From a virus: 20,988 nucleotides of DNA. This document shows, in pieces, positions 74 to 4,071 of the stretch (position 1 is the first letter of the stretch; each line of letters starts with the position of its first letter). The translations under genes were made by a program, and so were the position numbers. The notes beneath the pieces are model-generated. The model was not told the origin of the DNA, made no database searches, and saw only the letters and a list, made by a program, of their open reading frames with translations. The stretch spans positions 1 to 20,988 of the IMG/VR virus record IMGVR_UViG_3300031957_000527. One strand, given 5' to 3'.

Positions 74-391
74 TTAGTTAAATGCTACGCCAAGCAGCTT
101 CAGTTTGTTGATGTCTTCTTTTACTTTATCTATGGCAATATCCCAATCTTGGGGTAAATGATAGATAAACTCAGAATCGTCTGCATTAATATCTGGAATC
201 TCCGACTGGATTATAATCAATCCCCTTGAGGCATCTATGGTAATGTCACTAGCTTTCCAAGATAGCTCCAATCCGTGTAAGTTTAATGAATCCAAAAAGA
301 CATTTTTAACTGCTGTTGCAATCGATCTGTCTGGAATGGTTACCCAAAACTTAAAGGTGGCTTCTGTTTTAATAGCTTTTATTTTTTCCAT
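74..391 (-). CDS. Hypothetical protein (105 residues)
   Basis: I do not recognise this family. The protein looks like a small soluble alpha/beta domain: a beta-rich N-terminal half (TFKFWVTIP near residue 13), a central hydrophobic strand (GLIIIQSEIP near residue 57), and a helical C-terminus with KVKEDINKLKLLG. There is no signal peptide or membrane segment. The ATG at 391 is preceded by an AT-rich leader without a Shine-Dalgarno sequence (AACCAACTAATA, then AAATACC), similar to the leader of the 507-842 gene. The gene is flanked on both sides by leftward terminators, so it may be its own transcription unit or be reached by read-through. A small accessory or early phage protein is the only reasonable guess; function is unknown. 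Confidence 0.6.
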   Translation of the reverse strand: MEKIKAIKTEATFKFWVTIPDRSIATAVKNVFLDSLNLHGLELSWKASDITIDASRGLIIIQSEIPDINADDSEFIYHLPQDWDIAIDKVKEDINKLKLLGVAFN

Positions 392-506: not shown

Positions 507-842
507 CTACCAATCGGCTTGCCAAAACTTGGTGGCAATGGCATCCTCAAACTCTTTGACTATCTTAATAGTCTCTTCTAAGGTTTCGCAAATTACATAC
601 TCAGATTCATCTCCGCATTTTACTGCGTAGTTGCTAACCTCCTCTTTATCGATATTGGATTGCGTAGAGTTAGGAAGTAAGACAGTCATGTAATCCGAAA
701 AATCTGGATTAGGAATATCTCTGCTTATTGACGCTACTAAGTCATCTCCGTAAGATGAGTCAGACCATTTGCTACCAAGCTTTTGAATTAGATTATTCAT
801 GATAGGTTGAGCTAACTCGGGATTGTGATTTTTATATATCAT
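507..842 (-). CDS. Hypothetical protein (111 residues)
   Basis: Not recognised. The product is acidic and soluble. The N-terminus is helical (ELAQPIMNNLIQKLGSKW, about residues 9-26), the middle may form strands (DYMTVLLP, YAVKCGDESEYVICETLE), and the end is a helix (EETIKIVKEFEDAIATKFW). This order suggests a compact alpha/beta fold, but no motif assigns a role. The ATG at 842 follows GCCAACATAAATAAATAAATACT, an AT-rich leader without a Shine-Dalgarno that shares CCAAC and AAATACYATG with the leader of the 74-391 gene. It is the first coding gene downstream of the leftward promoter at 1515-1543, about 665 bases away, and is followed by an intrinsic terminator. Confidence 0.6.
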   Translation of the reverse strand: MIYKNHNPELAQPIMNNLIQKLGSKWSDSSYGDDLVASISRDIPNPDFSDYMTVLLPNSTQSNIDKEEVSNYAVKCGDESEYVICETLEETIKIVKEFEDAIATKFWQADW

Positions 843-1508
843 AGTATTTATTTATTTATGTTGGCTCTCCCTAATTTACAGACGGCTTGAGACGCTCTCA
901 GAGTGAGGCTAGGTTACCAACTATGTCCCCCGTGCTAAGTCGTCATACATCTCTGCTTTACCAACAGAGAGAAGCTAGCGGTAGGACTGTCAAAGAACGG
1001 AACTGCTCCTCTAAGATGCACACCTTCCAACCCTGCGCAAGCTTTTTTTTCCAGATAGTATGATCTCCCTTGTGGCTCCCATTTCCGTGACCAAGTAACA
1101 CCCCTTCTCCGACCCTCTTATAAGTGGCCCTCTCTCCGCGTTTCCTGCATCGCTGCGAGGCATCCTTGCATGGATTGAATGGCCAGAATCACTCCTTTGA
1201 ATGGAATGAATACATGGCATTAATCCTTTCCGTCACTGATAAAGAATTAAATCTCTCATACATAAGCAAACCCCAAGCAAACTGTACCATTGGGAAGCTT
1301 CCTTGTTGCACCCTGGTAGCTCAAGCCGTCCCCGGTGACCGCAAGCTCAGACGGGGGGGCGGGGGTCGCGTCGTGAGCCGGCTAGAATCGTATATATCAT
1401 CAGACACCCCTTTAAAAAATAGATAACTCATAGGCCATACTATCCGCATACTACCTTTGTATTACTCAGTAGGGTTACTGCTCCAATGCTCCTTTGTTCC
1501 AGCGGAGA
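843..1508 (-). ncRNA. Candidate large structured RNA or very long leader, transcribed leftward
   Basis: No believable coding gene lies here, yet the segment is downstream of a near-consensus leftward promoter (1515-1543). Local pairings, seen directly: CAGTA/TACTG closing a 4-base loop (1467-1480); ACCA-GGG with CCC-TGGT (1286-1294 and 1311-1317, two unpaired bases); CCGTC/GACGG (1350-1354 and 1326-1330) enclosing CGG/CCG; CTCTG/CAGAG (951-955 and 965-969); TGAGA/TCTCA around a 3-base loop near 888-900. Two 7-base long-range complements also exist: 1502-1508 with 1133-1139 and 1351-1357 with 927-933. A G-rich tract at 1350-1366 stands out from the AT-rich surroundings. I could not match it to a named RNA class; a pac or cos region or a plain leader remains possible. 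Boundaries are inferred from the promoter and the next start codon. Confidence 0.35.
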
Positions 1509-1543: not shown

Positions 1544-1592
1544 GCAAAAAATCCAATTATTTTTGATCCAGGGGGAAGTAATCCTTGACATG
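1536..1592. promoter_or_regulatory. Inverted repeat spanning divergent -35 boxes, with AT-rich centre
   Basis: CATGTCAAG (1536-1544) and CTTGACATG (1584-1592) are perfect 9-base inverted repeats. Each holds the TTGACA of one of the two divergent promoters. Between them AAAAAT (1547-1552) and ATTTTT (1559-1564) form a second, inner dyad. The centre could act as a shared UP element for RNA polymerase or as an operator for a regulator that controls both directions. Confidence 0.55.
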
Positions 1593-1613
1593 TATCTAAG
1601 TCCTTCCTATCAA
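1585..1613 (+). promoter_or_regulatory. Rightward sigma70-type promoter for the terminase genes
   Basis: TTGACA (1585-1590), 17-base spacer, TATCAA (1608-1613; four of six -10 bases). The expected start point is about 1619-1621, on or next to the ATG of the small terminase gene at 1621, which would make that transcript leaderless or nearly so. Confidence 0.6.
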
Positions 1614-2425: not shown

Positions 2426-4071
2426 CTATTGAGTTCACAAAGCACCCAGCCCTCGAAGCCCCTACCGATGAGGAGATAGTTCTCTTAGGTGAGGCTGATC
2501 CTAAGCTGTTGGTTGCGTTGCACGAAGCCCACGAGGGTAGGATACGGTCAGCGGAGGAGGATCCACTTCGTCACGGATTTGAACTGCCGGGCTGGAGCAG
2601 GATGCGAGATGCCCTGCAGGACTACGATGAGGTCATTACCTTTGGGGGAAACAGAAGCGGAAAGACAACGGGATGTGCTAAGATGGTCATGGAATCCGTG
2701 ACCGAGAACATGGACGGCCACGTTGTATGCTTCAGTCAGAATGCGGACACATCAATCAAAGTCCAACAGGCTGCCGTATGGGAGATGATGCCCAGGGAGT
2801 TCCGCAGGAAGACCAAGAGTATTGATGGTTACATTAACTTCAGTATGCAGAACGGGTTCACGGGTTCCTCTTTTATCTTCCCGGACACTAGGACTAGGGT
2901 AGATTTCAAGACCTATACTCAGTTCAGTAATAACCAAACGATCCTAGAAGGTTTTGAGTTCGGCTTCCGTAACCCCAGCGGAACAAATATAGGGGCTTGG
3001 CTGGACGAATACTTAGGGGATGCTGCTTTGGTAAACACCCTACGCTTCCGTCTTGCGACCAGAGATAGTAAGATGCTTCTGGGCTTTACCCCTATTGACG
3101 GATACACACCATTTGTTTCGGATTACCTAAAGGGTGCTGAGACGCTCGAGACTAAGCCTGCGTCCCTGCTGAATGGCGAACAGGTTCCCGTGATTCAATA
3201 CAGCCCCGAACGGGATGCTGGTGTTGTTTACCTGCACTCCGACGAGAACCCCTTTGGCGGTTATGACCGCATAGCTAAGGATCTAAAGAACGCGAACCGT
3301 GATACGATCATGGTCCGTGCCTATGGATTGCCCACGAAGTCCATGACTTCACTGCTACCTAACTTCAGTCCGGAGGTCAATGTTCTGAGCGAGGAGCCGA
3401 ACAAATACGATATGACCTTCCCTGACAAGAAGTCCCTTACCTGGTATCAGGTAGTTGACCCAGCATTTGCTCGGAACTATGTAGCCATATGGGCAGGAGT
3501 ATCCGAGGACGAGGAGATATTTATAAGAAGGGAGTGGCCGGACAGGGATACCTATGGTGAGTGGGCTTTGTTCGGTGACCCAAAATGGAGGAAGGGTCCA
3601 GCCTCAGAGAAGATAGGATACGATGTGCAAAGATACTGCGAACTATTTGAGGAGATTGAAGAGGAGCTAGGTATCGAGGTCACGGAACGAATTGGTGACT
3701 CCAGATTCTTTGCCAAAGAAAATGAGAACAATGTTGATCTATTTACGGCTTTTTACGATTTTGGCATGAATTTTACCCCATCGGACGGACAGCAGGAAGG
3801 CATAGGTAACACTAGCTTGGACGATTGGTTCTTCTATAACCCGAACTATGACCTTGATCCTGCTAACAGACCTCGGTGCTACGTGCATCAGGACTGCGGG
3901 AATCTTATTGAGAGCATGATTAATTACAACGCTGCTGGTAAAGCGGACGAAGCACTCAAGGACTTTTTTGACCTCATCCGTTATTTGCGAATGTCAAATG
4001 GCGGTATGGGTCCGGACTACTTTGCATCCTCCGATATGGGGATCACGAGAAAACAACAAGGAGGATACTAA
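2422..4071 (+). CDS. terL: Terminase large subunit
   Basis: The ATPase and nuclease of the DNA packaging motor: it translocates DNA into the prohead through the portal and cuts it at the end. The 549-residue length is normal. The Walker A loop is GGNRSGKTTG (residues about 75-84), the Walker B acidic pair is in WLDE (about 193-196), and a coupling motif follows in LLGFTP (about 219-224). The C-terminal nuclease half shows the acidic motifs VVDPAF (D346) and IGDSRFF (D426) expected for the RNase H-like fold. The start follows a strong GGAGGAAG Shine-Dalgarno and overlaps the upstream gene by ATGA. The stop overlaps the next gene by TAATG, preceded by AAGGAGGA. This is one of the most secure calls in the window. 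Confidence 0.95.
   Translation: MTIEFTKHPALEAPTDEEIVLLGEADPKLLVALHEAHEGRIRSAEEDPLRHGFELPGWSRMRDALQDYDEVITFGGNRSGKTTGCAKMVMESVTENMDGHVVCFSQNADTSIKVQQAAVWEMMPREFRRKTKSIDGYINFSMQNGFTGSSFIFPDTRTRVDFKTYTQFSNNQTILEGFEFGFRNPSGTNIGAWLDEYLGDAALVNTLRFRLATRDSKMLLGFTPIDGYTPFVSDYLKGAETLETKPASLLNGEQVPVIQYSPERDAGVVYLHSDENPFGGYDRIAKDLKNANRDTIMVRAYGLPTKSMTSLLPNFSPEVNVLSEEPNKYDMTFPDKKSLTWYQVVDPAFARNYVAIWAGVSEDEEIFIRREWPDRDTYGEWALFGDPKWRKGPASEKIGYDVQRYCELFEEIEEELGIEVTERIGDSRFFAKENENNVDLFTAFYDFGMNFTPSDGQQEGIGNTSLDDWFFYNPNYDLDPANRPRCYVHQDCGNLIESMINYNAAGKADEALKDFFDLIRYLRMSNGGMGPDYFASSDMGITRKQQGGY

Follow-up and report, generated by a model that had tools for sequence, protein, structure and literature searches.

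What is the function of the 778 bases (843 to 1620) that separate two divergent sets of genes in a 20,988-base virus fragment from IMG/VR, the stretch of DNA analyzed here and referred to as the window? On the rightward side, terS (start at 1621) and the TerL gene (start at 2422) are followed by genes for the major head protein and other structural proteins. On the leftward side, the gap is bounded by the ATG at 842 of a gene (507 to 842, minus strand) for a 111-residue protein that belongs to no known family, followed by a second small gene (74 to 391, minus strand). A Pfam search of eight window proteins gave no match. A sequence-only reading of this locus had proposed a large, undescribed structured RNA of ∼670 nt, rich in hairpins and without a convincing gene, downstream of a near-consensus leftward promoter. 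Several of these observations hold. First, the gap is non-coding because most indels relative to its relatives break the frame (12 of 14, 14 of 17, and 24 of 26 are not multiples of 3 in the gap alignments), which rules out a coding sequence. Second, the promoter, here P1, reads TTGACA (1543 to 1538) and TAGAAT (1520 to 1515) with a spacing of 17, matches the consensus at 11 of 12 positions, and is kept in relatives. Third, the G+C content peaks locally at 74.5% (1335 to 1385) compared to 45.7% for the window. The many hairpins did not prove unusual: on neither strand does the segment as a whole fold better than its dinucleotide-shuffled versions (z-scores of +1.75 on the minus and +1.04 on the plus strand) and, therefore, hairpins predicted from the single sequence are no argument for a structured RNA. 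Real structure is visible by comparison only, and in 1006 to 860 only.

A TerS search of IMG/VR yielded at least 198 related stretches, and 80 of them were retained; the anatomy of the gap derives from comparison with ∼60 related phage contigs. A DNA search of an isolated-phage collection found no relative, and a genome scan with TerL for a host gave no match. The sole annotated relative that we found, by its TerL protein (71% identical), is Phage C75C1, for which no host is recorded. In blast comparisons of the gap with relatives, the blocks 843 to 944, 976 to 1057, and 1351 to 1620 are conserved and the middle is variable. On the minus strand, relatives carry, in this order, P1, a conserved ∼100-nt block with a U-rich motif at its end, an AT-rich stretch, a C-run, a spacer, a second promoter (P2), a leader RNA, and an ATG. 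The gap thus has four parts: P1 with its conserved block (1543 to 1350), a variable spacer, P2 (∼1040 to 1012), and the leader RNA (∼1006 to ∼860).

The leader RNA seems to be served by a closer promoter of its own. P2 (1048 to 1012, minus strand) is predicted from an A8 tract, a TTGCGC −35-like box, and an extended TGTGCATCTT −10-like box. In the window, P2 is a weak match (7 of 12 positions); its layout is kept in relatives with better matches, e.g., TTGACC...TAATAT and TTGACA...CATACT, and the predicted P2-like promoter ends ∼6 nt upstream of the start of the conserved RNA. The 5′ half of the leader, RNA-B (1006 to 923, minus strand), starts with GCAGUUCC(C)GUUC and continues into the only match of an Rfam search of the window, RAGATH-24 (RF03049), at 993 to 923 on the minus strand (54.6 bits, E = 1.8e-9; gathering cutoff 45.3). 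Hence, this half of the leader had already been described. Among relatives, 17 of 40 score above the gathering cutoff and 27 of 40 match at E below 0.001. In the alignment to the model, the consensus helices (closing helix, second helix, and hairpin arm) are present in the window; among relatives, the closing helix changes pairwise (GUCC/GGAC, GUCA/UGAC, and GUCG/CGAC), as does the second helix. The window differs from the model in that the variable third arm is absent, being reduced from 35 positions to 1. In relatives, this arm is present and long, and takes inserts that give leaders of ∼150 to 330 nt. Since family members vary in this arm, the window still counts as RAGATH-24 without it.

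The conserved structure extends ∼60 nt beyond the RAGATH-24 model, into a domain (921 to 860, minus strand) that no family covered in the Rfam search. The domain consists of a closing helix (921 to 917 with 864 to 860), an inner helix (913 to 910 with 873 to 870), two hairpins (907 to 897 and 896 to 880), and a 3-bp pseudoknot (891 to 889 with 867 to 865). Four observations support this structure. First, in an alignment of 36 sequences located 3′ of RAGATH-24 (A1), for which the structure was drawn up by eye, 97.0% of cells are paired, two-sided changes number 160 compared to 55.9 in shuffles, the covariation score is 0.544 compared to ≤0.081 in slid controls, and RNAalifold recovers the nested helices unaided. 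Second, a covariance model built from A1 (R1) scores members at 49.7 to 98 bits and the next sequences at 10.8 bits and below; it also found members beyond its training set. Third, in an enlarged alignment of 47 distinct rows (A2), 97% of cells are paired, two-sided compensation is seen at 14 of 20 pairs, and the covariation score is 0.578 compared to 0.009 to 0.066 with the partners slid; shuffles lose the relatedness of the sequences, whereas slid controls keep it and still stay at ≤0.066. Fourth, the pseudoknot pairs are intact in 47 of 47 rows, each of them occurring as two to four types of base pair. The pseudoknot is the cleanest evidence because, unlike the nested helices, it was not used in fitting A2. 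Even in divergent members, the closing helix is compensated (UUCG/CGAA in L074; GUUAG/CUAAC in L126 and L144). Judged by comparative analysis, the domain is a new and strongly supported pseudoknotted extension of RAGATH-24, and the covariation, including that of the pseudoknot, argues that selection acts on RNA in 921 to 860. Thus, the covariation check proposed along with the sequence-only reading was strongly positive for the 3′ domain of the leader; the same check on 1508 to 1405 met 28 distinct but nearly identical sequences with too little variation to score. What stands of the proposal is that the minus strand encodes a conserved structured RNA downstream of the named promoter; its size (∼150 nt, 1006 to 860), family, and full novelty had to be revised. 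Neither RAGATH-24 nor the pseudoknotted domain was matched in C75C1.

The leader is followed by an A/U-rich, unstructured spacer (859 to 843, minus strand) without a Shine-Dalgarno sequence and then by the ATG at 842. Over 50 loci, the closing helix of the domain lies a median of 18 nt from the start codon. The first proteins behind the leader fall into 30 sequence clusters among these loci; the one in L106 has ArdcN and metallopeptidase domains and is an anti-restriction protein of the ArdC type. The comparisons thus establish the structure of the leader, its position, and the diversity of the genes behind it. The leader is present in phages whose TerL is only 52 to 54% identical to that of the window (L144 and L168) and absent from close relatives with 95 to 98% identity in TerS (L003, L006, L014, and L015), and is, therefore, an exchangeable module rather than a fixed part of the genome. 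Because ∼18 nt separate it from the start codon of 30 unrelated first proteins, we regard it as a generic leader of an array of swappable accessory genes, and it very probably acts in cis on whatever gene follows. Altogether, the RNA is a RAGATH-24 member with a new pseudoknot; it most likely works as a cis leader and probably controls the expression of the array genes.

How might such a leader act? The leftward arrays carry a terminator-like element, element E, which consists of a G+C-rich bulged hairpin, a U-rich tract, GGGU, a second hairpin, and an A-rich spacer before an ATG. The window has one copy (hairpin, UUUUUGGGUG, second hairpin) at 466 to 419 before the next gene and a second, also found in a terminator scan, at 65 to 18 after the gene at 74 to 391, both on the minus strand. 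In 47 arrays, 119 copies are in the forward orientation, i.e., on the transcribed strand, and 11 in reverse. Element E is present in 32 of 34 leader-bearing but only 5 of 13 leaderless arrays, at densities of 1.21 and 0.21 per kb, respectively, and there is none in the 19-kb rightward operon. No clear promoter follows it (mean best score 7.49 compared to 7.22 for shuffled sequences). Where accessory genes occur in both types of array, element E mostly precedes them in the leader-bearing type only. Two loci (L033 and L165) have element E between a RAGATH-type leader and the first gene. Two divergent leaders (L155 at 5318 and L165 at 3827, both on the plus strand) share the promoter and the GTTCTTTGACAGTC start, have another body, and are then followed by element E ahead of any gene.

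On balance, we lean toward a model in which P2 drives a cis leader that acts as a nascent-RNA antiterminator for the accessory array. The host-type promoter P2 would drive the leftward transcript, and its first ∼150 nt would fold into the RAGATH-24 core and the pseudoknotted 3′ domain, ending ∼18 nt before the start codon. The leader would stand in front of a series of small accessory genes that are freely exchanged, and, while nascent, would carry RNA polymerase past the terminator-like hairpins that separate these genes. The antitermination step, taken by itself, we put at somewhat under an even chance. We infer it because a promoter-proximal RNA followed by serial terminator-like hairpins is the arrangement of put in phage HK022. 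There, the promoter-proximal put RNA is followed by terminators in series, putL lies just after an early promoter and works without a dedicated protein, and put is ∼70 nt long with two stem-loops (PMC9378689). As in HK022, the RNA described here is structured and followed by terminator-like sites, would open a predicted early transcript, and has no evident dedicated protein. It differs in being larger (150 to 330 nt) and in its fold, which has a pseudoknotted junction. This difference in size and fold speaks against antitermination, as does the weak match of P2 in the window. Moreover, the leader and an E-rich array may have been co-inherited as one exchanged block, which would give the same correlation. 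Counted by gene family, the association of element E with the leader comes down to just ∼7 against 1. Finally, the stem pairing of element E often extends beyond the U-tract (CCCA...UGGG) and some copies have three U only, so these hairpins are perhaps not terminators. Because the stem passes the U-tract, element E may be more than a terminator, e.g., a processing or recombination site; alternatively, it may not be a real terminator at all, with its hairpins serving another role.

The main rival is that the leader controls translation or mRNA stability, the pseudoknot, which borders directly on the unstructured start region, shielding the 5′ end or recruiting or blocking ribosomes, perhaps under the control of a ligand or protein. 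We consider this somewhat improbable in itself, and almost as likely as antitermination. The start codon lies 14 to 24 nt from the closing helix in most of the 50 loci, without a Shine-Dalgarno sequence, and this tight spacing fits translation control equally well. In addition, in leaderless relatives P2 precedes a small hairpin and then an A-rich spacer like that behind the leader, and, in the leftward array of L079, several genes are preceded instead by H-type pseudoknot-like CAGUUUGCGGAACUGUAAAACCGCCUUUAAUAA elements; because of these small hairpins and pseudoknot-like elements, structure ahead of the start codon is common practice in these phages. However, control of translation or stability leaves the concentration of terminator-like elements in leader-bearing arrays unexplained, and a fold of 150 to 330 nt is large for 5′ end protection.

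It is unlikely that the main role of the leader is to supply a processed, free small RNA acting in trans. Catalogue entries class RAGATH families as genes or small RNAs, and, in L073, RAGATH-24 (2997 to 3105) and the domain (2929 to 3003) are followed by a type II hammerhead ribozyme (2857 to 2917), which makes this locus an outlier with 103 nt between the closing helix and the first gene. Because the hammerhead lies between leader and gene, self-cleavage would free the leader. However, this arrangement occurs in 1 of 50 loci, elsewhere the leader reaches the start codon without a terminator, and hammerheads also lie between later genes in other arrays. Indeed, the leftward arrays of three relatives contain type II hammerheads (RF02276) (L073; L074, 1151 to 1214; and L058, 157 to 219; all on the minus strand), with further candidates by pattern in L015 and L068, and they occupy the place held elsewhere by element E. 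The window has no hammerhead by Rfam match or CUGAUGA/GAAA core, and RAGATH-24 differs from hammerheads in lacking the GAAA core strand.

Even less probable is that the segment serves chiefly as a DNA element, i.e., a replication origin or packaging site by terS, with the RNA being secondary. The terS promoter (TTGACA-17-TATCAA, 1585 to 1613, plus strand; 10 of 12 consensus matches) diverges from P1 (1543 to 1515), and terS mRNA is probably leaderless because the −10 box lies only 7 bases upstream of the ATG at 1621. Transcription from P1 is predicted to start at ∼1508, at the head of a conserved block, RNA-A (1508 to 1405, minus strand), which ends in motif M (1436 to 1405; ∼CCYWUGAG-N6-AUUUUUU-RAGGGG as RNA, CCYWTGAG-N6-ATTTTTT-RAGGGG as DNA). 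Motif M reappears in divergent relatives, with a similar stretch in C75C1. It is followed by a conserved DNA element (1400 to 1353, minus strand), an AT-rich ATGATATATA and a C-run that reads as a G-run on the plus strand, at the same place in relatives and C75C1. Together, 1353 to 1436 beside terS is a candidate replication origin or packaging site. The P1 block, motif M, AT-rich stretch, and C-run are kept on the terS side in all groups and partly in C75C1, and the spacer of several relatives contains short repeats. However, the covariation and pseudoknot in 921 to 860 indicate selection on RNA, and leaderless relatives retain the DNA element, which is, thus, separate from the leader RNA.

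A single ornate RNA of 670 nt resembling GOLLD or ROOL, with which the leader shares a non-coding nature and a phage or mobile-element setting and to which size, position, and a P1 transcript that could span the gap would point, is very improbable: the leader is much smaller with another structure, GOLLD, ROOL, and HEARO models matched the window neither at the gathering score nor up to E = 10, the middle third is unconserved, there is no excess folding, and a second conserved promoter lies inside. Of the earlier readings, a long regulatory leader, offered as a fallback, fits best.

The arrays contain further RNA elements. In 30 locus entries, among which several contigs are listed twice, giving ∼11 distinct sequences, the Rfam tmRNA model matches a 67-nt element (56 to 69 bits) from which the entire mRNA-like part is missing (e.g., L085, 16273 to 16339, minus; L083, 3555 to 3621, plus; L082, 14709 to 14775, minus; and L086, 3792 to 3858, plus). 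Its acceptor stem contains G3-U70, and it further has a short stem with pairwise changes, a T arm, and an encoded CCA. By these features, it is a tmRNA reduced to its tRNA-like domain, carried in phage arrays. In L082, L083, L085, L086, and L088, a gene whose product starts with MKIKIHTYP or MKVKIHTYP is preceded by a promoter and then by RTTACTAGAATNATCCA in two or three copies, which may form an operator.

If the leader acts as an antiterminator, RAGATH-24 with its pseudoknot might, although this is doubtful, represent another class of processive antiterminators made of RNA only, the second after put and distinct from it in structure, with which an uncultured phage lineage reads through arrays of exchangeable, terminator-insulated accessory genes, anti-defence genes among them. 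Most RAGATH families are still without an assigned function (PMC11061315), and we found no mention of RAGATH-24 in the literature searched. RAGATH-24, catalogued without a function, is now placed in the first nucleotides of a predicted phage accessory-gene transcript, and gains a larger, well-supported structure and a testable role. Because the genes behind it comprise ∼30 unrelated first-gene families, one of them ArdC, the leader marks arrays in which counter-defence genes may be found.
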